Source of the DNA: Terebella lapidaria
Lineage: Eukaryota; Annelida; Polychaeta; Terebellida; Terebellidae
Length of the DNA: 64,000 bases
Direction of reading: 5' to 3'
NCBI GenBank assembly: GCA_949152475.1
Contig: OX424560.1
Coordinates: 25,545,106 to 25,609,105 of the forward strand
Position numbers and translations under genes: made by a program. Positions 7,922-49,951 of the stretch are shown here, one piece after another. The notes below the pieces were generated by a model. That model searched no databases and was not told the DNA's origin. It saw only the letters and a list, made by a program, of their open reading frames with translations. Positions within the stretch are counted from its first letter, which is position 1, and the number at the start of each line of letters is the position of its first letter.

Positions 7922-7982
7922 ACTGAGTCGGTGTCTCTGCTGGTGGATAATTATTTGTCCCCGCGGGCACCATCAGCTCAGT
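7922..7982 (+). other. Conserved folded leader of the Penelope-like element
   Basis: Outer stem ACTGAG (7922-7927) pairs with CTCAGT (7977-7982). GGTGTC (7930-7935) can pair with GGCACC (7966-7971). An inner stem GGATAA/TTGTCC encloses the loop. The related sequence at 58273-58334 keeps all three stems while changing bases, including a U-G to C-G change in the inner stem. An alternative pairing of CTGCTGGT with ACCATCAG competes with the middle stem. Confidence 0.55.
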
Positions 7983-8024
7983 AAACCTAGTATAGTTAGG
8001 TTTAACCTAGTATTTGAAATAACT

Positions 8025-9368
8025 TTGCAGTACAAAGACAACGGAAACATACTGGTTGGCACGGCGCCCAGTAAAAAAAGGTGCCAAAAAGCTGTGTCCA
8101 AGGGCACGGTCACAGCTTCCTCAGAAGGTGCCCCTAGACTCATCATATCAGATGTTATGAAAACATCATACGTAGTCTCTTCTGATCGTTCCCTATGGTA
8201 CAACAACTCGGGTAATTTTATTAATATTAGAGATTGCAAAATCAAACTTCCAGATTTAATGAAAGCAGAGGGTGATGATTGTCAATATAGTATTAATAAA
8301 TGTAGAGCTAAAAACTGCAAAACTTGTGATATATTAATTACAGATTCACAGTTCACAAGTTCACTTACCAAACGTACATATACTAGTAAAAGTTATGAAA
8401 ACATCAATTGCAAAACCAGCAATATCGTATATGGAATTGAATGCACTATATGTGGTCTTGTATATATTGGAGAAACCAAAGGACAGCTTAACAAGAGAGT
8501 TAATGGTCATCGTTCCAACATCAATAATAATTCTAATCAACTGCTTTATCAACATTTTAATCAGGATGACCATTCTATTTTGTCAATGAAAGTTCGAGTC
8601 ATAGAAAAAATATACCACCATACTGATAGTCCCTCATTAAGTACACCCACCCGCAGGAAACGAGAAGAACATTGGATACGTGAACTAGGCACAGCTACAC
8701 CTTATGGCTGTAACGATAATATCAGTTCAGTGGGAAACCTGACTAGCCCAGGATGCAGTTCAGTCAATGTAATGAATTTATTTACATCATTTAAACGTAG
8801 GAAACGAAGCCATGGACAACGACATTATAATCGACCATCTATTCATAATATTTCCTTTGATGGTCTACTCGAAATATTGAAACAACCACTTGGACTACAC
8901 TATGTTCGCACTAAATTATTCGCCATACCTCATGTTAAACTTAAAGAACTAGAGGACCATTGTCCTACCCACTATATCAGAAATACCAATAGCTATGAAT
9001 TTCGTCTGTATTCCATTATCATGGATATTGTTTATCATCGGCTTTATAAGCCAACACAGAATTCCGAATATATACCACCCAAACGGTCTTTTCTGAAGAT
9101 AAAATTTGCTAATAAAGGTATTGATGCAATTAACATCAGTAATATATTACATCATAAGTCTGTTCAGTCCCAGGTACCATCATACTTCACTGACACGGCC
9201 GCTCCATCTATATCCTACTCATATACCAAATCTGTTGCTTCCAAGATATTCAACTACAAACAAACATTGAATGATTTGGATATTGATGATCTCTTACATA
9301 ACCCACCCTCCTGCACTTGCATTAACTCTCCGTTCATACACGATTTTGTCCAAAGGTCCCAAATATAG
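8025..9368 (+). pseudogene. Penelope-like ORF, segment 1: GIY-YIG endonuclease and RT N-terminus
   Basis: This open frame of 447 codons carries the endonuclease half of the element. Numbering from 8025, cysteines at about 86, 93, 98 and 101 precede the nuclease fold. The fold shows VYGIEC (135-140), YIGET (147-151), an R-x3-HR segment near 158-163, a catalytic-type glutamate in REEHW near 214-215, and PYGCND near 226-231. The domain would nick target DNA for reverse transcription. The frame is open upstream of 8025; the first in-frame ATG is at 8157, so the true start is unclear. It ends in a frame change where the RT reading continues in another frame, and the residues normally linking the two parts seem to be missing. 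Confidence 0.8.
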
Positions 9369-10614
9369 AAAGCCCACGTCGTTTTCATGGAGATACAATT
9401 TTAAGTTAATCATGGATGCAGTTGAGGAGCACGCCAGAAAATGGACAAAGCGAGAAAAGGCAGAAACTGATTCTCTGTCAGAATGGGTCAAACAGATTAG
9501 GTCATTGGTAAACAAACGCATTAATGTTTTGTCAAAGTCAGTTAGTACTAAATATAGCTCTGTCTTCAATGATCCCGTGGTTGCTAATAGTTTGTTGGAA
9601 CTTCAAGAAAGGTTCGTCATTGTCCCTGCAGATAAAGCTTCTAATAATGTTGTTTTTGTTTGTAAAGCATACTATATACAGTGCCTGTTTGACGAACTGG
9701 GTATTGCCAACAATACTAATTCCAATAGTACATACCAAGCCATTACCGTGCCCAAACAGGATATCTTATCAAATCATTTGTCTGTATTGCATTCGTTTGG
9801 TATTACTACCTCATGTAAAGATTCTAATCTACCAAACTTATATTGGATCCCAAAGTTGCACAAAAATCCACACAAACAAAGATATATTTCAGGTTCAGCA
9901 TCATGTTCTACCAAAGCCCTTTCTAAAATATTAACTGTTATATTGTCTAAAATTAAACAGGGTCTCCAAAAGTACTCTGAAACCATCTATTCTAGAAGTG
10001 GTATAAACCAAATGTGGATATTAAATAATTCCAAATCTTTATTGGAATATCTACATGCTCACACACTTTCAAAAGTAACGTCTATCAAAACATTTGATTT
10101 CTCTACTTTGTACACAACTATACCTCATTCTGAACTGAAGTCTCAGCTTAAAAAATTAATCAATAATTCATTTTTCTCTAAAAAGGGCCAGCGTCGGTAC
10201 CACTATATTGTAGTAAAATATAATACCGCTTACTTTGTTAAAGGCGACTCTGATGCCCCATACAAATATACTGAAATAGATGTGGTAAATATGGTTAATT
10301 TTCTGATTGATAATATTTTTGTGGAATTTGGTGGTCGAATATTTCAACAAACTATTGGTATTCCCATGGGTACAAACTGTGCACCATTATTGGCAGACCT
10401 GTTTTTATACTCATATGAATCAGATTTTATCCAACATTTACAACGAGGAGGTTCTAAGAAACTAACAATAAATTTTAATTTCACTTTCCGATACATAGAT
10501 GATGTATTGTCGCTAAATAATCCCAAATTATTATTGATTATTTGGATGTCATATATCCTAGGGAACTTGAAATTAAGGATACTACAGACTCCGCTAATTT
10601 TTCCAACTATCTAG
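9271..10614 (+). pseudogene. Penelope-like ORF, segment 2: reverse transcriptase core
   Basis: Homology to the RT begins around LSKGPKYRKP (residues 26-35 of this frame); earlier residues are probably out-of-frame noise. Then come FVIVPADKASNNVVF (115-129), YWIPKLHKNP, the catalytic aspartate in FDFSTLYTTIP (275-285), IGIPMGTNCAPLLADLFLY (362-380) and the YIDD active site (408-411). These are the usual Penelope-type RT motifs. The catalytic residues are intact, but the frame is lost just after YIDDVLSLNNPK, near 10530, and continues in the frame at 10542. The enzyme would copy element RNA at a nicked target. As drawn, this copy cannot make a continuous protein. Confidence 0.85.
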
Positions 10615-10964
10615 ACCTGAGGTTGGAGATTGATAATGATTCTAACCTGTCAACTAGATTATATGACAAACGTGATGATTTCAATTTTTCCATAGTCAAT
10701 TTCCCTTTTCTAAGCAGCAACATTCCTATGTCACCGGCATATGGTGTGTTTGTTTCTCAACTTATACGCTATTCCAGAGCTAGTTGCAAATATGAGGACT
10801 TTGTCTATCGAAGTGCCCAGCTAGTTTCTAAACTGCTGCGACAAGGATATGTTTTACCAAGACTTATAGCTGCGTTTAAGAAATTCTATGGACGTCATCA
10901 TGATCTGGTTGATAAATACAGCAAATCCATGTCTGCCATGCAACTAGATCTATTTTCATGTTAA
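10542..10964 (+). pseudogene. Penelope-like ORF, segment 3: RT C-terminus
   Basis: This frame continues the RT after the second frame change: IYPRELEIKDTT, LYDKRDDFNFSIVNFPF, IPMSPAYGVFVSQLIRYSRA and KFYGRHHDLVDKY. These are characteristic of the thumb and C-terminal region of this Penelope group. It ends at a normal stop at 10964 with no endonuclease domain afterwards, which supports the permuted domain order. The same segment exists at 49375-49750 with about three-quarters or more identity by eye. Confidence 0.85.
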
Positions 10965-11158
10965 TTTTGGGGAATTCATGACGGGTGCCACTAGTGGGGC
11001 AGGAAATGCTCACTCTTTCCGGAACACCTGATTTCACCTCCTAATGGCCATTTTTGGGGGTTCATGAGTTTCCCTGTCATTTTTGTTTTCTCTCACTTCG
11101 TATGCCTGATATGACTTTCTGTCCCCGGACTATGAGATTGGATAACGGACCCTGTTTT
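10965..11158 (+). other. 3' untranslated region of the Penelope-like element
   Basis: It starts with 'gaattcatgacgggtgcca' and a GGCAGGAAATGCTCACTC block that is repeated after the RT stop of the second copy (49760-49830). It is conserved between the two copies, then runs into the 45-bp terminal repeat. Confidence 0.75.
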
Positions 11159-11203
11159 GTTTGCTCGGAATACTTAATACTGGGTATTGATTCCACGTCT
11201 ATT
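11159..11203 (+). repeat. 45-bp direct repeat, right copy
   Basis: It is identical to 7871-7915 and marks the 3' end of the Penelope-like element. Sequence after 11203 belongs to the upstream region of the THAP gene. Confidence 0.9.
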
Positions 11204-11439
11204 CTAGGCTACTAGAATCGTTTTCATACGACATCGCATTGTTCTTTTACGCAATAACGGTCTTTACGTAATCCGCGTGAGAAAGTAGTTTCAGCCCGGT
11301 GTTGGTCAGCGAGTGATACAGATTAAAGTACAAGAGAAGTCAGAATCGATTGATTTTTTTTGTATATATATGCAATCAACTGGTCTCATAGATGACGAAT
11401 GTGGCAAAATTTGGGTCAATCACCACCTATCAATATATT

Positions 11440-11528
11440 TAATCGATAATAAAACCGGCCGTTTTGATGCAAAACTGCAAAGTCGCACGGGGGCGCTGCG
11501 AGCGTTCTGTGACGTCACAACGAGAACC
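11440..11528 (+). promoter_or_regulatory. Mirrored CRE-containing upstream region of the THAP gene
   Basis: TGACGTCA (11510-11517) is a perfect CRE/ATF-type palindrome within GACGTCACAACGAGAACC (11511-11528). The same 18 bases occur on the opposite strand at 23586-23603, upstream of the convergent ballast-domain gene. Weaker similarity continues outward: a GGGCGC block, then AATCGATAA against AATCAATAA, and ATTAAAG-x-ACAAGAGAA at about 11321-11339 against about 23767-23784. It may be a shared promoter or a diverged terminal inverted repeat. Confidence 0.55.
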
Positions 11529-11669
11529 CTTTCTCTCTCGCGGCCATTACCAGCTGTAAGAAACACTTTACTCGAGCGAACTTCCTTTTACATGTGAATT
11601 GTTGGTTTAGTTTACCCGTTCTACTTCATTTTTTATAAACAAGGAGCTCATATTTCATAGATTAGTACA

Positions 11670-14600
11670 ATGCCGAGGAGGTGTGTCGTAGCTGGATGCG
11701 ACGGAGAGGCTGTGACGAAGGTGCGGAGTATTCATCTTTTTCCCACGGCCACGCCATCCACGCCCGGCAGCGCCAGCGTCAGGCAGCAGTGGGTGAAGTT
11801 CGTGCAGGTGTGGAGGGTGGGATGGCAGCCCACGGCCACATCGATGATCTGCTCTGACCACTTCACACCTGATGATTTCACCAACTGGCACCAGTTCACT
11901 GCAGGTAAATTTGTCCACATCCGTGTGAGCAATTCACTGCACAACTTGCCACACGAGATCACATTTTGAAGATTTGTCTGATACTAGATTCTAGAGTCTA
12001 CTGCAATGATTTTTTTCTCAAAAATCTGGTCGTAAATGCTTGTCATTGTCAATAAATATTATTCTCCTTTGGCACGTTTGGGCGATTCCATTTGGATACT
12101 TTGCATAGGCCCTGATAGGGGTGAGGGTTAGGATTTGGGACCGCCCACACATGTAAACTGATTCGAAATGACTCGCTTGTGCAGGTACCTTGTCGACACC
12201 TGACAACCCGATCCCCCCATTATGCCTAATTTGAACATGTCCACTTTGATTTCGTGATCAGAGGTCGATAACCAAACAATATGTCGGCACCCACGGTTTT
12301 TTTTGAGAAACAGATAGCGTTCCTGAAGGCAGGTTTGTGTAAATTGATTGCCGTTTGTACCACAGACATACAATTTTGAATAGTTCGCTCGAAGTTACTG
12401 GACTGAAGGCAAAAAACGGTGTAAAGGAGTTAAAAAAGAGTATACCTAGTTATGAATGTCTGACGCTAGCATTTTGAAGCCCCGCTGGCTGCCCTAAGTT
12501 GGTCTGGCTACTTGAGAGCCAAATACCCGATTTCCTGATCGCGTAAACCAAGCTTGCCACACATACTTGCAACAAACTTGTGCTGGTGATTAGTTTTAAC
12601 AAGCCGCCAAACTCTGTTAGTATGTTTGTTCACCAGATTGAATAGAATTAAAAACAGCTAGATACACATTTTGTCACACACACAATGTGAACCAAAACGA
12701 CCCACAACAGTACTATGGTTGAGATATATGCAACATCCTGTGAAAAAATTATAATGATCAGACGCACAGAGCTATACACTGTACAAAACGTGGATGTTAC
12801 CAATTTGAGAGTTACATTTTGCGCATTTGTGGATTTACCGTATGTGCCAGAGCATAACGGGGATCCCCTCTAGGCACAGGGCTTATGATTGGAGACCAGA
12901 ACAGGTTACCGTGTTGCATGTTCATGAAACTAGTGTTAGAAAGAGTAGGGATTTTTGTATCCAGGTACTCGTTGGGCCATAATCGAACCGTAACCGGGTA
13001 CTCGTTTGCCAATTACATATTTACAAATTCATGATTATAAGGCCATAAAGTCGCCATATATGCATTGTCTGCACCATAACTGTGTGAGCCGGAGAAATTT
13101 CAATTTGTGCGCCAAAACCTGAACTGTTTTATTGAGTGGAGAGTTAATGTCACGAGTCAACCGGATAGTTTCAGTGATAAATCTGTTCATTTCACCCAGT
13201 GTGGGCGAACTACGGGCATATTTCTGTGTGTGATATGATTTCTGTGTGTGTTACGGGCAATCGGTTATTCATTTCGTAACTGGTTAATGGCAAACTGTAA
13301 CCGGGGCGAGTCACCCGGTTACTCCTTCTAACACTAAAACCAACTTCCAAGGCCCTTGAGCTTAGCTGCTAATATTTGGGGATTATTAGGGTATTTCGGC
13401 ACGAAAAATAGCTTTGTCAGAATTCTTTTTCCCTTCTTTCTTTTTATTTTTCCACTTTTTGATCTCCAGACGATAACTCGGGAACGCCTGGATGTATCTC
13501 CAAGAATTTTTCACCAGTTATCACTCAGTCACATAGATGAACCCCATTGTTTTGGAGGCAGCTCCGAGCTCTGTTTGGTCTGTGAGGATGAATTTCTTGT
13601 CAATAGCTTCCGGATGATAATTTGAAATAATACTTCTGGAACTTGACACTCGCTATTGTGTAAGAGAGAAACCCTATTGATTATGGGGTGAATCAGTCGA
13701 ATGACCTTCGGCCAAGAGCTCAAAAGTTATTTTAGTGAGTCATCTTGAGGCCAACTACATATTTTATAGTGTCCAGACTCGTTTGAAATTGTTAAATTCT
13801 CCTATACATTTTAATGGGACACCTTTTGCCTAATATCTCACTTAATATTGACATTAGAGATCAGGAATCAATTGTGAACGTATCTAGGAAATGATATGTG
13901 CTGAATATTCTCGTGACCTCTGAACTCATTTTCAAGGTCCGAGCACAAACTGGCTAATATCTCGCTTATCATGACTTCACAGCATAGGAATCAATGTGGA
14001 CATACTAGAAATGATAAATGCTGAATATTCTTGTGACCATGAATTGACCAATGATCTTATTTTCAAGGTCATGGGATGAAAGGCTAATATCTCAAATATG
14101 TTGTCCGGTAACCTGTCTCAGGGGTATCTTGGGTGAACTTGGCCCTGGACCAAATTTTTTTTTGCTGAGTCGGCGTTTTTCATTTTCGGCCATATCTCGG
14201 AAACGGTGCGTCATAGAGCAAAAAGTAGTGATATGCGGACTCGTGACACTAGGCCAACATGTCTTAGGTGTATCCTGGGTGAACTTGGCCCTGGGCCAAA
14301 TTTTTTTTTGCTGAGTCGGCGTTTTTCATTTCCGGCCATATCTCGGAAACGATGCATCGTAGAGCAATACGGACGTTATTTTCAGACTCGTGAGTCGTGA
14401 CGCTAGACAAACATGTCTTAGGGTATGTTGCGTGAACTTGGCCCTGGGCCACATTTTTTTTGCTGAGGCGGCGTTTTTCATTATCGGCCATATCTCGGAA
14501 AAGGTGCGTCGTAGAGCGAAACGGACGTTTTTTTTGGGCTCATGGCACTTGACAAACATGTCTTAGTGGTGTCTTGGGTGAACTTGGCTCTGGGCCAAAA

Positions 14601-17600
14601 TTTTTTTGCTGACTTGACAGTTTTCATTTCTGGCCATATCTCGGAAACGATGTGTCGTAGAATGAAACAGATGTTATTTTTAGACTCTTGGTACTAGACA
14701 AACATGTCTTAAGGTATGTTGGGTGAACTTGTCCCTGGACCAAATTTTTTTTCTGCTGAGTCGGCGTTTTTCATTTTCGGCCATATCTCAGAAACGGGGC
14801 ATTTTAGAGCGAAACAGATGAATTTCAGTCGAAATGTCCCAAGGCATCTTCAAGCCTTGACGTTTAGTTTTTCTTGAATTTGGTGATGTTGGGAATTGTC
14901 AGTAGTTAACACTTCATCTGTAATTGTATTGTGCATTGAAATGCCCCAAGGCCTCTAGGCTTTTATGTCTAGTTTATTCCAATGCCATCCCAGACCGCTG
15001 AAGGCCTAACATGGGTTCATATGATTTGTACATGAATAACAGTGGTTTACCAAAAGTCGGTATCCAATTTGCTTTCATATACAGGAATAATGTACCTAAC
15101 ACATTTGTAATATCCAGATTCAATGTTTCTTACTGATCAGAATGTTCTTTCAGAATGTCATACACATAGATCATATTAGTGATATAATATGATGAGTTAT
15201 GTCGCGTCACATTAGGTCTGGAAACAACAGTTTACTAGTATTAAAGTGGAATAATCTGTTTTTGGTTTTCCGGTTGAAAGTGATCAATAGCTTTTAGCTG
15301 TCCTAAGAGCAGCTGTACAGTGTAAAGGTTCCAAAAGTATATTTTATATACATGATTATAAATGAACTTGTCTCTCAAGTTTGGATGATTCCAATACACA
15401 GGCTTTGCAAGCAAGCTGTTGATGAAGGATGCAGCTGTGCCCTCAGTCCAGCCACCAAAGGAAAGAATACAAGCACGACAACTTCAGCAGCGTGGACTTA
15501 GTGAGCAAATTATTTCATTGCATGTATTTTTTGTGAAATCCTGGGGACCCGACGCTGATAACCAAATTATAACTGAGTTATGGTTCAATACCGGTAACCC
15601 GGGAGTAAACTTACAGCGGGACCAAGTTAGTTGTCATGCTCATTGATAGAAGGTACATTATTTCCAACAAAATTTTCATTTCAGCTGGTGAACAAAAGAC
15701 TGGAAAACCGAAGGAGACTGTGGCAAGGCCAAGGAAAGCTGTGGCCAAGCTCGATATTGCTCGAGTGAGTTGAGAAAGTTTGGTCTAACTACTAGTATGT
15801 TAGCAGAATTTTTTCAAGAAAGATCCTGAAATAAATAGTACACTGTGAAAATGTACATGTGTATACCTAATGTACTGTGGCAAGATGTAGAGTGGGATAT
15901 GACATTGTTGCCTGGGATAGGATTCAAGTTGCTTGGGATAGGAATCCAGTTGCCTAGGATAGGAAACTTGTATATATTGTAAAAGTTGTGTAAGTTGTGT
16001 AAGTGTTGATATGGAGTTGTATTTGTGCACTTTCAGAGCCTGGCATGCATGCCTCCACCTGGCCCAGTAGATCGAGAAGTCCCTGACACCGACATTCTGG
16101 AGGAGACTCTCTCTCCCATTGGTTTTGATGAGCCAACAGGGCACATCCAAGGTAACTACTTATTGATTGCCCAGCTATATAATGTAAATAAAAATACTCT
16201 GTATGTATGATTCTGTTCAAAATCAATGAATGTCTTACATGAGCCTCTTGGCTTATATGTCCTTACGTGATTGAACAACAATAAATACTGGTATTATTTT
16301 TATTGAATTATGAACTTGGCTTCAACATTAGCGGTTGCTTGTTTGATTGTGAATTCATCCTCAATTTTTCTTCTAGAGGAGATTACAGGCGATGGAAGCT
16401 TTACTGCTAATGGAAGCTTTACTGCTAGCACACAGTGTGATTTTAAGCCTTGGCTTCGAACACGAGGTTTGTACATTTCAGAATATGACACATGTATGTA
16501 CTGTCTATCAGCTCTGCAGCATACAACTAATTTATGTTATTAGTTTGTGAAATATGTGTATACTATTTAGTCTTGTGAATTTTTGGTCAAAAGTATTTCC
16601 TGAGTGTTCTCGTATTTGTATAAAGAAATACAGGTTGATGTCAAGGTCAAGAAGATTGAGGTGGGCACACAGTGTTCATTGCTGGAGGCTCCTCCCCTGC
16701 AGCTGTTGTCCAACCAGGAACCAGTAGGCTACTGGAGAATTTATTCTCGTTCATATCTATGTATTTTCTGAAAACATTGACAGATTACATAGTACACTCA
16801 GTAATTGAACTTCAAATGTTAGGTTCCAATTGTTGTATCTGTGGACATTCTTCATTGTGTGTACATTCCAATACAGAAGGTGATCAATATCTCACAGGTG
16901 GTCGATGACGTCACAGAGCAAGAACCCATGGATATGGAGGATGACACCCGACTGGACCCAAACTGGGAGCCCACTTCTGATGACGAGGACGACGAAGACG
17001 ACGAGGCTGTGCCAGAGTTCACCTCGTGAGTGATTCTACTAATGAATTAAATCATAGCTAATAGACATTTACAGATTTCATGTAATCGTGGTTTGCATTA
17101 GTGCATTGGTGGGGAAAATAAAAATAATTACATGGATTTTATTTTTGTGGCAGGGATTTTTGCACCTGTCTTAGGACTTGCCAATCAGAAAAAAAATGAA
17201 AACGGACACCTCAAAGGCATGAAAGTACTCACTCATATTCAGATATATATAATGTTTCAGAGTGGTTCATTTTTTCCCACATAGTTGTCCAGAACATCCA
17301 GAAACAGAGCACAAGTTCATTGTGTTCCATTCCAACCTTCTGGCCTTGTTTGACAAGTGTGAGAACTGTCGTGAGCCTACAGAAGCAGTCATCAAAAGTC
17401 GCATCGGCACATTCATCAGGGTGGAACAGGTATGAGATAAGTGGACTATTCAAGTTCATATTTAAGATTATGTGTTGACTTCAAGTTGTTTTGCATTCCA
17501 GATTTGTGTTCTCTATGTTGCCTTCATCAAGTTCATGTTTTCCTGTTTTCATATCCATTTTCCCGATAAGGAGACCCCTTATTCGCCTGATGACCAGAAT

Positions 17601-20126
17601 GTATCTGATTTGAATCAGTGAGAGGTAAATTTCACAGAGTAACATTGTCATTTCTTGTATTCCTGTAGTTATCATTGAACTTCAGCTTCAATCAAGAGTG
17701 TGTATGGTATTGAATGTCTTCACATTTATAGTATTGAATGGTTTTATATGTACAATGTATTGACAAAACAATTTCCAATGCAAATGCAAATAAAAATTTT
17801 CAGCACTGCGTGGCCTGCTCCCATTCCCGGACTTGGGACAGTCAGCCGATGCTCCGTGGGAGGATGCCAGCCGGGAACCTCGCTCTGTCAGCCTCGATGT
17901 TGTTCTCCGGCAGCATGATCCAACAGTCCCTGAGGTTGCTGAGCATCATGAACGTGGCCTGCTTCTCAAGGAGAACTTATTTCCAACACCAGGTGAATAA
18001 ACAGCACTGAACAAAACATGAAAAATGGTCTCCATACTCCATCTAGCTATGGTAGCGATGCAAACCGATGGGATAGTGGACAAATGAGGCTGGAATCTGA
18101 AGGAGATCAGGAGGCAATGGGGTTTTGTTTTGTACATCTCAATAATACTGTTAGCCAAGTACTGAGTGGGATGTTACAGTTAGTAAGGTAAAGTGTGCAG
18201 TTTTGTGAGTGGACTTAAACAACTTCACATACTTTCAATACGCTATAGTAAATGTCTTTCTATGGCAGACAAACTTCCTGGAACCGGTTGTTCTACGAGA
18301 GTGGGAGGTACAGCAGCAAGCTGTGGTTCAGGAGTTGAGGGAGCTGGGCGGCGGCCTCCACTTATCTGGGGACGGGCGCTGCGACTCACCCGGATACTGT
18401 GCTAAGTTTGGCTGCTTCACTATCATCGACGGAAGAGTGAACAAAGTCGTGGACCTGGAATTGGTTCAAGTATGAAGAAAATTCTAAATATAGATGAAAT
18501 ATTGACAAAATATGCTGAAGATAACTTTTGAATTTGTAACAGTCGGTACTATTGATTCCATTCATTTGTGAATACATACAGAGCACAGAGGTTCCAAACA
18601 GTGCATGGTGTGAGGTAGAAGGCTTCAAACGGGCGATGACTTTCGTACAGAACCAGGACTTAGAGGTGACCGAGCTGGTGACCGATCGTCACGTCAGCAT
18701 CGCGAAGATCGTTCGGGAAGAGCACCCAAACGTCCGGCACTGGAACGATGTCTGGCATTCAGCAAAAGGTTGTTCCCCTTCTGATCTTGGCACACCACTA
18801 CATGGTTGTGTGGTGACAATGAATTTGGACAACTTTGTATGTCCTTTGAACATCTTTGGCCTGTTATTGTAATGTGTGTGATCACAAGTGAACCTTGAAT
18901 ATTGTTGTTACATTCAGGCTTGAGGAAAAAGCTGCAGGCACTGGCAAAATCCCACCCACTCGTCTCAGCATGGCTGCACTCGATCATCAACCACATGTAT
19001 TGGGTTGCCGCCTCCACCAGTGACGGAGATGAAGTGTTGAAGGAAGGGAAGTGGTTGTCTCTGCTCGACCACATAGTCAATGACCATACCAACTGTTTCC
19101 ATGATCCCTTGGAGAACGAGGACAGGAACAAGCAATGGTTTGACCCTGGTCAGTACTTTCTGACATGCTATACAAGCTGCGCCTGCATCTGTCAGTTTGT
19201 CATATAATCTATCCAGCCCTTTTCGGCTAAATACATTGGCTCACACCATGAAGTGCATAGGGGTATTTTGGATGATTTTCATTCTGGCCCTGAAATTTTC
19301 TCATTGAAACAAAATCCAAATCATCTGTAGATTTATTGCATTGTTTTGTTGGCAGCGAGCATGGAATTCTTCAAGTTGGAGAAGCTCCTGTGTGACAAAA
19401 AGCTCCTTAAGGATGTCAGGAAACTGTCACCAAAATTTCAAACATCTCAGCTCGAAGCTTTCCACTCGCTGATGATTCGCTTCGCCCCGAAACACACGGC
19501 CTTCTCATATCTTGGGATGCTTTGTAGGTGAGAACTTCATGATTATTTTGCCACCAAAGGATGATGAAGATGACACAATAAAACATGTAAATAGTGATTT
19601 TATCTTTCCTCAATTTTCACTCTGAAACAGGCTCATCCTCTCTGCACTACACTACAATGAGAACAGCACCAAGCAGCAGGCATCGACTGCCAGTGGACAG
19701 ATGAGGTGGGCCGTCAAATTTCGGAAAGCAAACCAGGGAGAGGCCAGTCTGAGCAAGATCAGGAACACTGCAACGTTTGGTGGGTTAGTAATGAAGACGC
19801 CGGTTTTACATTACATGACAATTTTGAGGTCAGATGACACAGATTGACCAAACTTTTTGAAGTCTTGCCAAAATACATCATAATGTGTAATCAAAAAGGC
19901 CTATAAATGTTTTTGATGTGAAATGTGTTTCAAATTGACAGAGTACAGCAAGAAGCTGATGAGCCGGCTGTTCACCGAGTACGTTGCAGACCCAGCAGCC
20001 CTCACTGCTTCCATTGACGACATCAGAGGGAAAGTTCCCCAGCCACTGTCATCCAAGTACGGCCCAGTGGACAAAGCACATATGGTCCAGGATTATGAGA
20101 GTCGCTTCAGTGACCTAACTTTGTAG
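11670..20126 (+). CDS. THAP-domain, Kolobok-like transposase protein (15 exons, 774 aa)
   Basis: Exons: 11670-11904, 15402-15500, 15685-15764, 16037-16151, 16377-16466, 16626-16723, 16877-17025, 17285-17429, 17804-17992, 18269-18469, 18582-18768, 18918-19148, 19356-19527, 19631-19779, 19942-20126. All junctions are GT/AG and total 2325 nt without a stop. Exon 1 is a THAP DNA-binding finger (C5, C10, C61, H64), and AVPSVQPP follows in exon 2. An acidic stretch lies near residues 270-285, and a CxxC pair (C314/C317, C339/C342) precedes the core. The core has [10 protein letters not shown] (D435/D439), TDRH (D502), DVWH (523-526) and QLEAFHS (E640), a plausible DDE triad of an RNase-H-like transposase. 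The exon 6 acceptor (AAAG at 16625) is chosen only because the stronger CAG at 16633 puts a stop in frame. Intron 1 (3.5 kb) holds repeats; 11905-13789 and 14823-15401 show nothing recognisable. It could be a live transposase or a domesticated gene. Confidence 0.85.
13790..14113 (-). repeat. Pearl-like core fragment in intron 1, reverse orientation
   Basis: It contains two degenerate reverse-complement monomers of the 1790-3120 array ('gctgaatattct', 'caaggtc', 'aatatctcgctta'). It ends at TCCGGTAACC (14104-14113), the same terminal sequence found at 3959-3968. Confidence 0.7.
14114..14822 (+). repeat. Tandem array, about 147-bp monomers, five copies, intron 1
   Basis: The phrase 'gggtgaacttggccctgg' recurs at 14131, 14277, 14430, 14576 and 14721. 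Each is followed by a T-run, 'tcggcgtttttcat' and 'ggccatatctcggaaac'. Open frames on both strands here are products of the repeat. Confidence 0.9.
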
Positions 20127-20640
20127 CACAGTATTCCTGACTGCCTCCAGAACTAAAGATCTTATGACCTTCTGGCATGGCGTTGCGTCCGACTGTCCAT
20201 CTAGCCGGGCAAACAACGATGGCTCAAGGGCTGCAAAATTTCTCCACGATATTGGCTTGACCTTGTACTCAGACATACCTGAAGGCTAAATCCCAAGGTC
20301 ACATCTGACCTGGAATATATAAATTGGCCTTCACAGACAAAATGCTTTTAGAAACAAGTTAAAATTTTTGTATTATCCTATGAAAGTAGGGAGTGATAAA
20401 TGACTTGAGTAGTAAATCTCAAGTTCATCAAAAATGGCCAATTTGGAACTTTTTTTCATGTTAACGGTATTTGTCTGGTAACCTATCTTTAAGAAGGCCC
20501 TTAGGCTGATTTTTGTTATTGACCTACGGAGTGTCACGTTGTATATTGTGCAATGTTTTATTATGTCAACAGTGCGAGTACCTAAAAATGTCTTCATTGT
20601 TATTGTATTTGGTGAGTTGGAGAATGGACTGCTGATTCAA

Positions 20641-20646
20641 AATAAA
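20641..20646 (+). terminator. Probable poly(A) signal of the THAP gene
   Basis: This is the first AATAAA I found downstream of the stop at 20126, about 515 bases after it. The 20127-20640 stretch is presumed 3' untranslated sequence with no other recognisable feature. Confidence 0.5.
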
Positions 20647-20810
20647 ATGCTCTGAATACTTGGGAGCAGCATTGGTGAATGTACTTTGTGAATATTTTAT
20701 GACATACCGCTGTATTGTTTCTAAATCAGAAGCTACTTCCGAGCCTGTCTATGACAGGTAAAGAATAAGACTTTATCGTATTGAATTGGCCATCAAGACG
20801 TTTGTACATG

Positions 20811-20816
20811 TTTATT
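20811..20816 (-). terminator. Probable poly(A) signal of the ballast-domain gene
   Basis: AATAAA on the minus strand, 166 bases after the stop codon of the convergent gene. Together with the plus-strand signal it leaves a gap of about 165 bases between the two transcript ends. Confidence 0.55.
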
Positions 20817-20981
20817 GAGCAACAGATTGGATACATGTTAGATATAATGTATACAGAGCTATTTATCATGTTTATGCATACAAGTCAATTCTGTGGCAAC
20901 AAAATGAGAATCATGTGTGAATGAGACAAACATGAAAATATGTAAAACATGATGTGCACAATGAATCCAATGTCAAAAAGT

Positions 20982-23562
20982 TCACTCTAGTGGAGGCCAC
21001 TCGAAACCCTTGTATCGCTGTCCCTGGTCATTCGGGTAGGCTTGTCTGATGGCATTGACAGCACATGATGGCATGGGTAGACGGTTCCGTCTGCCGAGCA
21101 TGCCCCAGCACATGCGCACAAGCTGTCGGTAGGCAGTGTACCTGTACCGTCTGTTGAAAGAAAAATATGCCTCAGTGAGGGTTGATAAAGGGATGTAAAG
21201 CAAAGGGATGTAAAGCAGAAGTATGATCGGTGATAAATTCCAATGAAATATTCGTGAATAAGCCGTCGTTCGGGGATAATCCTATTGTTGCCCACCTTCT
21301 ATTGTTAGAAAGTGGGCAACAATAGGTTTATCCCCCAGCGATGGCTTATTACCTAATTTCTATATACATGTATGCCAAAATTTGTTAGAATAGCTGGCTG
21401 TCTGCTGGTAATTTTGCTGGAGCAATGCTTTATTCGAAGTGCTTTTTTTTCAATGACCCTTCGAATCTTGTACATGTTGTAAATTAACAACGTTTTATCT
21501 TTGCAACATTGTTTGTATATCTTCGTCTTGTATGGATACTACAATACACTAAAGACATCATCTATATACTTAACAACACTTATCTGTTAAAAGATAGGTG
21601 TCAGGGGATCCCCAGGCCGAATAAATTCATTGTAATTTCTCATCGATCAGTACTTATGCTTCACAGCCATTATAATGTGCAATCGTAACAGACCTTGTAA
21701 TCATAATCAAATTTTTAATGTGCACCCACTGTCTTATACACCCATCAAATATTAGTGCATTGACTGCATTCTGTCAGAGTACATGGAATTTGCTGCTAGA
21801 AAAAACAATATGCTGGAAAAGTTCTCAATAATGTTGACCTGTGTAGTTCAGGGGGTACATCCGGATTGCTCCGGATGTTGTACTGGTGCCAGGCTGTGTG
21901 TAGGCTCCAGGGACTGAGGCACACGTCTGGGAACCCGGGGTGCTGGGTGATGCATTTAACTTTGGGGTCTTGTTCCTCGATTGGACGCAGGAAGTTGAGG
22001 ATCACCTCATACTCCCGGCAACAAACGGACTCCGTCTCCGTCTCCATGGCAACACATTGTCCACAACTGCACCTGAAATGTTGAAATTGCATTGTATAAC
22101 AATCATGGTTTGGCCATGTGGTTTGTTTTTAATTTTTTTGGTTGTATGAATGATTATGATTGTATGGGCGAACAGGTATGATTTCTTGAATTGATCTTTG
22201 TACCAACATATCTGCATGTGTTCAGAAAATAAATAAGAAGATAAATAATCTATGCATTCTACCTTGTATTTTTTTTATTGGGAGTTTTAACACAAGGTCT
22301 TGAAAATGAAAACAAATACATGTACACAATGTCATGTATGTTTTAGGGTCTCCTAAATGTCCTGTGTTAGGTTTATACATACATGTGGCAAGTGGTGACG
22401 AACGGTTTGGGGGAGAGACTTTACATGCAAAAATATTTTGAATGAAATTAGTGGAATACTACATATTACTTACAAGAAAAATGAGATTACACACCCTTGT
22501 GCATGGGGACTACATAACCGAAAACAAAATCATTTACATGCAATCATTTTCATCAGACTTTACATGCAAAAATATTTTGAATGAAATTAGTGGAATACTA
22601 CATATTACTTACAAGAAAAATGAGATTGCACACCCTTGTGCATGGGGACTACATAACCGAAAACAAAATCATTTACATGCAATCATTTTCATCAGACTTT
22701 ACATGCAAAAATATTTTGAATGAAATTAGTGGAATACTACATATTACTTACAAGAAAAATGAGATTGCACACCCTTGTGCATGGGGACTACATAACCGAA
22801 AACAAAATCATTGATAATTCCGCTATATACAACTCGTATACAGAGGTAATATTTTTGTCCTTATAGCATTATCCTTATAACCGTGTAAATTATGTAATAT
22901 AGGCTAGACACCTCACACACGTTCCTAATACTTATATACTTCCATCCAGCACCATTATAGTGTTCAGACACAATATCGCCAGTAGCCCAATACTGCACAT
23001 AATTTGTTGCACAGTGTAGACCTACAGTGCCAAGTACACATTGTAAACCCCTACTGGCTCGTCAGGTCACACTCGACATGCTCAAGGGCACTGATGTCTG
23101 CTTTTTGGTGTGGAGGCCTATAGATCTGTGTGGCACTGTGAGTGTCGAGGGGTGGGGCGCTGGTCCTGTGCTGAGTAATGTTTACTGTAGGCCCTAGATG
23201 ATGGAAGATAATTCGTGATAAGTTTCAACAATGAGAAACAACACCCTGTATACACCCGTGACCCTCCATAACTTCCATGCACCCACACCTCTCGATGTAT
23301 TGTTGGTGCGGCCACAGCCTGAGCGACGCGGAGCTCAGACTGTGCTGTATACAGCCGTACTCTACTCAGACTGTGGCAAGCGCATGCACGAGAAACGGGC
23401 ATAACCAACGAACTTCATGTGCAAATAAAAATATAATTTCACGTACCAGTTGATGTTTCCTTTCCTTTCCCCTACTTCTGGTTCCTCTGGGTCCCCATCA
23501 AAAGAAACAGACGTAGAAACACTCGCAGTTGGTTCAAATCTGTACGGCCTTATGCTCGCCAT
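20982..23562 (-). CDS. P2X7 intracellular (ballast)-domain-like protein (3 exons, 172 aa)
   Basis: Exons on the minus strand: 23562-23447, 22072-21839 and 21150-20982. They join in phase to 519 nt including the stop, with GT/AG borders. The start is MASIRPYRFEP, typical of this family, followed by an acidic stretch. Residues 39-57 carry WCxCGQC...ESVCC, then C79 and ITQHPGFPDVC to C90. The last exon has YRYTAYRQLVRMCWGMLG, LPMPSCAVNAIR and YKGFEWPPL. These match the zinc-coordinating cysteine pattern of the P2X7 cytosolic domain and its stand-alone invertebrate relatives. No membrane segment is seen, so this is not a P2X channel. The gene converges on the THAP gene; its CRE-containing upstream region mirrors that of the THAP gene. 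Intron 1 holds a 139-bp minisatellite, and 21151-21838 shows nothing clear. The molecular function is unknown. Confidence 0.8.
22417..22813 (+). repeat. 139-bp minisatellite, 2.85 copies, in intron 1 of the ballast gene
   Basis: 'gactttacatgcaaaaat' starts copies at 22417, 22556 and 22695, so the period is exactly 139. Copies are almost identical, implying recent expansion. The overlapping open frames at 22442-22814 are produced by the repeat and are not considered a gene. Confidence 0.95.
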
Positions 23563-23585
23563 GTCAGAAATGTCAACAAAACGAA

Positions 23586-23604
23586 GGTTCTCGTTGTGAC
23601 GTCA
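23586..23604 (-). promoter_or_regulatory. CRE-containing sequence upstream of the ballast-domain gene
   Basis: Read on the minus strand this gives GACGTCACAACGAGAACC (23603-23586) with the CRE palindrome TGACGTCA at 23597-23604. It lies about 24-42 bases upstream of the ATG at 23562. It duplicates the element upstream of the THAP gene in mirror orientation. An AAGATGGCGGCGCC-type segment follows at 23607-23620. Confidence 0.6.
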
Positions 23605-23855
23605 TCAAGATGGCGGCGCCCTCCAGACACGTGCAGGGTGTTATTGTTTGTTTATTTATTGATTATACTCGATACTGAGGCGTTTTTTTGATCACTGTTC
23701 ATCGGTGATGGCTTGCAAACATCTTTGGCTGCCAATTTATGATAACATACCCTGGGGATTTCTCTTGTCCTTTAATTTGAAGTAGGTTGATACAGAAAAG
23801 GTTATCACACCTTTCGGAGTCCTCTAGCATTGCAGTTCATAGTGTGTGATAAAAG

Positions 23856-35120: not shown

Positions 35121-36279
35121 CATAATAGATAGTTCCAGATCTTGTTTTCAATGCACCTCAGTCAAAAACATTCACAGCATTTGTTATATCTTCGAAATTG
35201 TCATCATTATTGGGTATTCAATTTAGGTGTGCCATACAGTAATACATTGGGAACATTTTCATCCCAATGAATTATTACATCTTGTTATTTCAGGTCTATG
35301 TCTATGGATATCCCACACGTAAAGTGCAGTTGGGCTGATTTAACTTGGATTTAGTAATTTCATAGAACGTGTTAGATCAATACTCTGGTATCTTTGACAG
35401 CACGAAAGTAAACACATTCACATAGTTGAATGAGTTGACACTTTCTAACTAAACGCACTAAATTTTTCGCACTAAACGCACTAAATAACACAAAATTAAA
35501 ATGTCTTATCATTTACATCTTGATGAACAGCATTGCACTTAATAATTCGACTATTTTGCTGTTCATGTGTGTTCATGCGGGTATAGTTTGAATGTAAATA
35601 CGCAATAAGCCACCACAATATCAAAACTGTGTAAAGGGAAATGCTCACCAGGCAAAGGCAGAGGAACGGATAGGTTTATTTGAGGTCGTATCAAATACAC
35701 GTCATGCGTAAGTCAGTTAAAGATATATCTAGTCCTCACACTTATCGACCAGCCCTTCAATTTTGCAACGATGTCACGTTCGTACATCTTGCATTGTTCA
35801 ATTACGGACGAAGTTCAATTTCTTAATGAACACCAATGTCATGGAAAACGACTAACATTTTTTCTTGGTAGTTGTACTGATTGGTAAAATCGATGTGACT
35901 CTCTTACATCATTTTGAATATGATCCACCAAGTGTATATTCAACTTCAACGCTGGAGCACCTAAAATTGTCATACACGCGTCCTGGAATACAGATTTATT
36001 AAATATTCACATACATGCAAACAAAACTCATTCGTTTCCATTTCCACCCAGCAGTTATTTATATAGGTTATTCACAAGTTGTGGACTTTTGTGAAATTGT
36101 TGAGATGCGGTAGTACGTAATAAAAACATTCACTCAAGAATACATATTTCGTACATAATTTTTTTGCACAGGATATGGGTGCAAGCAGTTGCCATTTCAA
36201 ATTACACACTCGCTAAGTGTGTGTTTACGGAAGCGTATTAGGGCCACATGAGTTTTTTTAAAATTCAATTTGTTGACTT

Positions 36280-36385
36280 ATTATCTCGATAAATCGAGAT
36301 ATTATCTCGATAAATCGAGTTAATTATCTCGATAAATCGAGTTAATTATCTCGATAAATCGAGATAGTATCTCGATAAATCGACT
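36280..36385 (+). repeat. Left array of CTCGATAAATCGAG hairpins (five units)
   Basis: Units of about 21-24 bp, each a near-perfect palindrome separated by TTA/TAA spacers. The right array (36892-37253) holds over a dozen units in both orientations (CTCGATTTATCGAG and its complement), so any two units can pair. Confidence 0.95.
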
Positions 36386-36891
36386 TATAAAACTCAGACA
36401 TTTAAAGTACAAGTAAACTGAGTATGCATCGACCATAATATAGGCGAACCATACCATTTCATTGGTTACCTTGGCAACAATAGGACAAAGAAAATATACT
36501 GATCACTTATATTGAAAACTATTTGGAGTATATATATATGATTAACAGTCAATACATTAATCTCTGAAATAATACCAAACTATCCAATTGAAGAAGCAGT
36601 ACAGATTTATAACTTTACGAATATACCTCATTCCATGTTTAATAGCTAAATAATTAAAAAAAAAAACAATTACACCATTTGCATTTATGAACAAGTTGCA
36701 TCTTTCTAAGAGATAGTGATATGGTAACTTCACTATAGTTTTTAATTCGGTTGTTTGGTCTGTATTATTCAATATTTAACGTTATATTGGTCCATCATAT
36801 AAGCCTATTCAACATAGTGTTTAATATGAATAATGTGACTCGAAACATATTTCCATTGTACTTGAACTTTAAATGGCCAAGACAGAAGTCG

Positions 36892-37253
36892 ATTTATCGA
36901 GATAATTAACTCGATTTATCGAGATAACTAACTCGATTTATCGAGATATTAAGTCGATTTATCGAGATAATATCTCGATTTATCGAGATAATAAGTCGAT
37001 TTATCGAGATAATATCTCGATAAATCGAGATAATTAAGTCGATTTATCGAGATAATAAGTCGATTTATCGAGATAATATCTCGATAAATCGAGATAATTA
37101 AGTCGATTTATCGAGATAATAACTTGATAAATCGAGATAAATAAGTCGATTTATCGAGTTAATATCTCGATTTATCGAGATAATATCTCGATTTATCGAG
37201 ATAATAAGTCGATTTATCGAGATAATATCTCGATTTATCGAGTTAATAAGTCG
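36892..37253 (+). repeat. Right array of CTCGATTTATCGAG hairpins
   Basis: More than a dozen units mix the TTT-centred and AAA-centred forms. The array is over three times longer than the left one, suggesting independent expansion by slippage or unequal exchange. Confidence 0.95.
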
Positions 37254-49220: not shown

Positions 49221-49951
49221 TATCTTGAAGTTAAAGATGTAAGTATCAATCTATTACCACCAATAGTAAGATTTTGATGATACCGAAAACAAACGTAAAA
49301 TAGAACATTTTGGAATAAAAACAAAGCCCGACCAAATAGTTTATCCAAAGACACACTGGCGTCATCATTACAGACTCCTCTAGTTTTTCCAACTATTTTG
49401 ACCTAAAGTTGAAGATTGATGAAGATTCTAACCTGTCAACCAGGTTGTATGACAAACGTGATGATTTCAATTTTTCCATAGTCAGTTTCCCTTTTCTAAG
49501 CAGCAACATTCCTATGTCGCCAGCATATGGCGTGTTTGTCTCACAACCCATTCGCTATTCCAGGGCTAGTTGCAAGTATGAGGACTTTGTTCACAGAAGT
49601 TCCCAGCTAGCCTCTAAACTGCCGCGACAGGGATATATTTTACCAAGACTAATAGCTGCTTTCAATAAATTCTATGGACGTCATCACAATCTGGTTGATA
49701 AGTACACAAGATCTGTTACAAGCATGCAAAAAGACCTTTTTGCATGTTAATGTTTGGAATTCATGACGGGTACCACATGTGAGGCAGGAAATGCTCACTC
49801 TTTTCTGAACACCTGATTTCACCTCTATATGGGGGTTCATGAAATTCCATTTAAATTTTATCGATTTTGCCTGACACTGGACTTTGAGATTGGATAATGG
49901 ACTCGGTTTTGTTTGCTGGGATACTATATACTTGGGTATTGTTTCCATTTT
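49221..49951 (+). mobile_element. 5'-truncated Penelope-like insertion with inverted leading segment
   Basis: TATAG flanks both sides (49216-49220 and 49952-49956). The uninterrupted array at 47744-47762 (GATATAGACACAAC) is the empty site. The first about 148 bases (49221-49368) are, on the minus strand, the same sequence as 58490-58628. From 49369 the element is plus-strand Penelope-like sequence to its 3' end. Opposed segments of this kind are common in Penelope-like insertions. Confidence 0.75.
49375..49750 (+). pseudogene. Penelope-like RT C-terminal fragment
   Basis: An open fragment with LYDKRDDFNFSIVSFPF, MSPAYGVFVSQPIRYSRA and FYGRHHNLVDKY is homologous to 10597-10964, and ends at a normal stop. 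The RT catalytic motifs and endonuclease are absent because of the 5' truncation. The frame is uninterrupted over this length and the 3' flank (49760-49950) matches the first copy's 3' untranslated region. Confidence 0.85.

Follow-up and report, generated by a model that had tools for sequence, protein, structure and literature searches.

The 64,000-nucleotide stretch of the Terebella lapidaria genome analyzed here (contig OX424560.1; hereinafter, the window) very probably contains a full-length, autonomous-looking two-gene Kolobok DNA transposon of the Kol0 kind. This conclusion follows from the TTAA flanks, the AG termini and the short inverted ends of the element, together with a transposase gene with THAP, DDE, DxxH and HHCH signatures that converges with a gene for a protein of the P2X7 'ballast' type. 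The apparent assignment to Kol0 is based on the presence of the second gene, KolX, rather than on a transposase tree. A first-pass annotation of this DNA proposed that the ballast protein might be the second gene of a mobile unit; the flanks, the termini, the inverted ends and the convergent Kolobok-type transposase all bear this out.

The same annotation stated that no description of such a pairing was known, but the pairing is already in print, and the window copy is a well-preserved new example. According to Kojima and Bao (Mob DNA 2022; PMC9587614; here and below, publications are cited for the passages pertinent to these elements and proteins), Kolobok elements of the Kol0 lineage encode a transposase and KolX, a protein that has the ballast fold and resembles the P2X7 C-terminus. 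They also conclude that P2X7 arose via fusion with KolX, so that its tail is KolX-derived. A literature search for the word KolX retrieved this paper only. Previously, Rump et al. (2020; PMC7016195) had reported stand-alone ballast proteins across animals, as well as one tick protein that combines an N-terminal 'TAHP' domain with a ballast end; the strings 'thap' and 'transpos' are absent from the text of that paper.

Boundaries and mirrored ends

The boundaries and the mirrored blocks of the element are as follows.
11327..23771, no strand: very probable Kolobok element as a whole, 12,445 bp, bounded by TTAA and inverted AG termini
11323..11326, no strand: left TTAA target-site duplication, read in the sequence
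11327..11341, plus strand: left terminal inverted repeat AGTACAAGAGAAGTC, 13 of 15 bases identical to the right end
11510..11528, plus strand: inner mirrored block TGACGTCACAACGAGAACC, which precedes the transposase start codon by 141 nt, an exact inverted match to 23586-23604
23586..23604, minus strand: inner mirrored block TGACGTCACAACGAGAACC, inverted, which precedes the KolX start codon by 23 nt
23757..23771, minus strand: right terminal inverted repeat AGGACAAGAGAAATC
23772..23775, no strand: right TTAA target-site duplication

The left junction reads TTAA followed by AGTACAAGAGAAGTC, and the right junction, in reverse complement, TTAA followed by AGGACAAGAGAAATC. On both sides, the outer end match halts at TTAA, and the first bases inside are AG. 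The 4-bp TTAA duplications and the termini AG ... CT correspond to the reported marks of Kolobok elements, namely, TTAA duplications and 5'-RR ... YY-3' ends (PMC9587614). The flanks are identical over TTAA alone (CAGATTAA on the left and TTAATTTG on the right), with no 8-bp duplication of the P element type. Relative to the start given in the first-pass annotation, the left boundary is 113 bases farther out.

Terminal inverted repeats, another Kolobok feature, are present both at the ends and in the inner block, which matches at 19 of 19 positions. The same 18 bases had been noticed in opposite orientation upstream of both starts; the match is in fact 19 nt long and exact. With up to three mismatches allowed, the 18-base pattern has two matches only in the 64-kb window, and two matches were obtained in none of 100 shuffles. 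The outer block, TTAA included, is identical at 17 of 19 positions (TTAAAGTACAAGAGAAGTC at 11323-11341 versus TTAAAGGACAAGAGAAATC at 23775-23757); a pattern built from both ends occurs at two places only in the window, and one of 100 shuffles also gave two. Local alignment of the end regions scores 30, compared with a maximum of 20.5 in 300 dinucleotide shuffles. Random pairs of real segments of the window (up to 400) gave a 99th percentile of 26.1 and a top score of 78, the latter because of dispersed repeats in the window. The left end matches the right end in inverted orientation only.

The window contains 81 runs of exact inverted matches of at least 19 nt. Four repeat clusters account for 69 of these runs, and the TGACGTCACAACGAGAACC pair is among the other 12. 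Such matches are not rare, and therefore, the argument rests on the two collinear blocks and their stop at TTAA rather than on the 19-mer alone.

The inner block includes a palindromic cAMP response element (CRE). An imperfect third copy of this block (TGACGTCACA...AGAACC) lies at 16907-16927, within exon 7 of the transposase gene, and may be due to chance.

The transposase

Two intact, spliced, convergent genes had been recognized in the first pass, and this reading stands: a 15-exon gene for a 767-amino-acid THAP protein faces a three-exon gene for a 172-amino-acid ballast protein (KolX; minus strand, 20982-23562), both without internal stops. Both gene models are predictions, with exons joined at GT-AG sites in the genomic sequence; in the THAP gene, the acceptor of exon 6 was picked among alternatives to hold the frame.
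11670..20126, plus strand: predicted transposase gene, 15 exons, 14 GT-AG introns, 767 amino acids, no internal stop
20641..20646, plus strand: poly(A)-type signal 3' of the transposase gene, motif only

In Pfam, the 767-amino-acid protein matches the THAP domain (PF05485, 4.1e-9, residues 5-94) and PF20700, 'Mutator-like transposase' (1.3e-12). Alignment places the DDE triad at D428, D495 and E633, a DVWH motif at 516-519 and the HHCH residues at 574, 579, 582 and 584. Across 19 aligned sequences (the window protein and 18 of the 82 relatives found), D428, D516, W518, H519, H574, H579, C582 and H584 never vary, and at least 90% of the sequences keep D495 and E633. To judge from the alignment, these residues fit the Kolobok DDE triad, the C/DxxH signature between the second D and the E, and the H2CH finger between DxxH and E; the THAP domain is likewise usual in this superfamily. 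The named relatives come from fishes, amphioxus, acorn worm, sea cucumber, molluscs, ticks, corals and a sponge. When the transposase profile was compared with solved structures, THAP domains were the best matches (2.4e-11) and the N-terminal part of the P element transposase was matched weakly (0.0063); no catalytic domain was matched. A scan of viral contigs with the transposase alignment yielded 16 stretches that fit the pattern, with no relative confirmed.

Intron 1 of the transposase gene contains five tandem copies of about 147 nt each (14110-14820), and near this array, at 13.83-14.04 kb, there are exact inverted matches of 19-24 nt with the region at 2.0-3.5 kb.

KolX

The predicted KolX gene comprises the following features.
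23447..23562, minus strand: KolX exon 1, start codon at the high end
21839..22072, minus strand: KolX exon 2, donor chosen among several open ones
20982..21150, minus strand: KolX exon 3
20811..20816, minus strand: poly(A)-type signal 3' of the KolX gene, motif only, with a second at 20557

For exon 2, four of the ten donors tried keep the frame open, and the one taken, with GTCAAC following CAG, gives the longest exon. The 172-amino-acid protein matches P2RX7_C (PF20478, 9e-15), that is, the C-terminal ballast domain of P2X7, and seven cysteines are common to KolX and P2X7. The predicted model of a relative, P0003, modeled in place of the window protein, also matches P2X7. On this evidence, the second gene is a KolX gene for a protein of the ballast fold, as expected of Kol0. 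Among the five P2X7 nucleotide residues named by Rump et al., two (R546 and R578) appear, from the alignment, to be kept in the window KolX, the same retention that those authors report for invertebrate ballast proteins (PMC7016195).

At least 15 species are common to the named matches in the lists of ballast and transposase relatives, one of these lists consisting of 120 of 242 matches. In 6 of the 15 species, a ballast protein and a transposase relative sit on contigs of equal length; these contigs are mostly chromosome-sized, and we give this no weight. Scans with the ballast alignment found 12 stretches that fit the pattern in viral contigs and three in genome contigs, with no relative confirmed.

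The first KolX intron contains three tandem 139-nt copies (22416-22832), and the second, a hairpin (21250-21357) with 52-nt arms that are 85% complementary.

Counterevidence and alternative explanations

Several observations weigh against the identification of a Kol0-type transposon. Pfam labels the catalytic domain as 'Mutator-like', not Kolobok, and a search of PDB by sequence alone reached P2X7 only at E values of 0.032 to 0.2. Comparison of the joined flanks with the window found no other copy matched across the junction, as an empty site would be, and no second copy of the element was seen, the end blocks occurring nowhere else within the 64-kb window. The outer repeats mismatch at 2 of 15 bases. 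The first-pass annotation also reported weaker matching outward of the 18-mer; this holds for the very ends, where the second block lies, but the zone between the outer and the inner block matches at 87 of 140 columns of the alignment, a score equaled in 16 of 1000 shuffles, which is marginal. Because of the differing outer repeats and the poorly matching middle of the ends, the copy may be old. Finally, Rump et al. put the number of ballast genes at under 10 per species and interpret two markers that adjoin ballast genes, from sponge to molluscs, as ancestral synteny (PMC7016195). We suspect that these markers, which are not named in the passages of that paper considered here, are Kolobok genes.

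The best-surviving alternative, which we nevertheless consider unlikely, is a former Kolobok element, both genes of which are now kept by the host as a domesticated pair. In its favor, both genes have stayed intact despite the divergence of the ends, 14 introns interrupt the transposase gene, the first of them with local repeats, and Xenopus offers many cases of domesticated Kolobok transposases (PMC6004289). Yet the TTAA flanks, the AG termini and the complete DDE triad are all in place, whereas of the 24 Xenopus proteins discussed as domesticated, 19 have lost the DDE triad and five have kept it (PMC6004289).

It is highly improbable that these are two ordinary host genes that merely have a promoter motif in common. 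The inner block does include a CRE palindrome, a common promoter element, and 19-nt inverted matches as such are not uncommon in the window, but the motif is found there only twice, the second collinear block stops at TTAA on both sides, and both protein families are published as Kolobok products (PMC9587614). Equally implausible is another TTAA transposon, piggyBac, or else KolobokP. TTAA is the target of piggyBac as well, and a protein resembling part of KolX occurs in a few of its families (PMC9587614), but the THAP domain, DxWH and HHCH of the window transposase argue against this reading, and Pfam at E values up to 0.1 detects THAP, PF20700 and a sub-threshold DUF5979 only and no piggyBac transposase domain. 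KolobokP would be expected to have terminal direct repeats some 450 or 660 bp long; among the 20 direct-repeat families listed, out of 45, there is none that connects the two ends.

Possible mechanism and role of KolX

If the element is a Kol0-type transposon, as we conclude, the transposase would bind both ends via its THAP domain, at the outer 15-bp repeat and/or the inner 19-bp block; its DDE site would cut, and the ends would be joined at TTAA, in the cut-and-paste manner presumed for the family. The inner block precedes both start codons and includes the CRE palindrome, and for this reason it is probably also a matched promoter element of both genes. By analogy with the P element, in which the transposase binds not only the terminal repeats but also internal sites (PMC7776569), this block might serve jointly as promoter and binding site.

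KolX would be a zinc-stabilized accessory protein. The role we favor, tentatively and at somewhat less than even odds, is a direct one, as a partner in the transposase-DNA complex. A stronger version, in which the Kol0 transposition complex cannot do without KolX as a subunit and the CRE block doubles as promoter and binding site, keeping the two proteins at a matched dose, strikes us as a long shot. If it were true, the guanine-nucleotide site and the zinc fold in the tail of P2X7 would be leftovers from a cofactor of transposition, with a parallel in the GTP that the P element transposase uses as cofactor. With only two of the five nucleotide residues kept, the idea of a nucleotide cofactor for KolX is weakened.

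The window element is independent support for the view, put forward in 2022, that ballast proteins are proteins of transposons. An intact copy with readable ends, duplications and both genes provides a practical basis for probing the role of KolX and hence the origin of the P2X7 tail. A further suggestion from this copy is that 'P2X7-like' genes modeled as stand-alone in invertebrates and fish are worth checking for an adjoining Kolobok transposase.

Neighborhood of the element

To the left of the transposon, at 7923-11195, there is an element that encodes a GIY-YIG domain (1.6e-5) and a reverse transcriptase domain (6.7e-8) and that we take to be Penelope-like; a relative of its 3' part, 80.6% identical, is located at 49369-49947. 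A dense inverted array with the unit TATCTCGATAAATCGA occupies positions 36275-37250.

Comparison with known systems

The closest counterpart of the window element is Kol0, represented by Kolobok-1_XT, which has the same TTAA sites, RR...YY termini and DDD/E transposase, as well as a second gene for a protein that contains the P2X7 ballast domain, cysteines included (PMC9587614). The window element differs in its 15-exon transposase gene and in the identical 19-bp CRE block before both starts; neither an intron-split transposase gene nor such a block is encountered in the passages of Kojima and Bao considered here. The Xenopus XKol elements are similar in their AG termini and in the combination of THAP, DDE and H2CH; ten full-length copies of 6,763-13,907 bp have AG ends, with TTAA on 19 of 20 flanks (PMC6004289). 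The search for XKol transposases, however, was directed at single long reading frames, and they are described as such (PMC6004289), in contrast to the intron-split gene in the window.

KolobokP belongs to the same superfamily and likewise carries an accessory gene downstream on the other strand, but it has long terminal direct repeats, a His-Me nuclease in place of KolX and a length of about 4.0-4.7 kb (PMC9587614). The Drosophila P element resembles the window element in its THAP transposase and in having internal binding sites and internal inverted repeats besides the terminal ones, and differs in its 8-bp target duplications, 31-bp terminal repeats and GTP-binding insertion domain (PMC7776569). 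P2X7 and Nanor contain the same domain with the same cysteines as KolX, P2X7 being a case of the ballast domain captured into a receptor and Nanor a stand-alone fish protein (PMC7016195).
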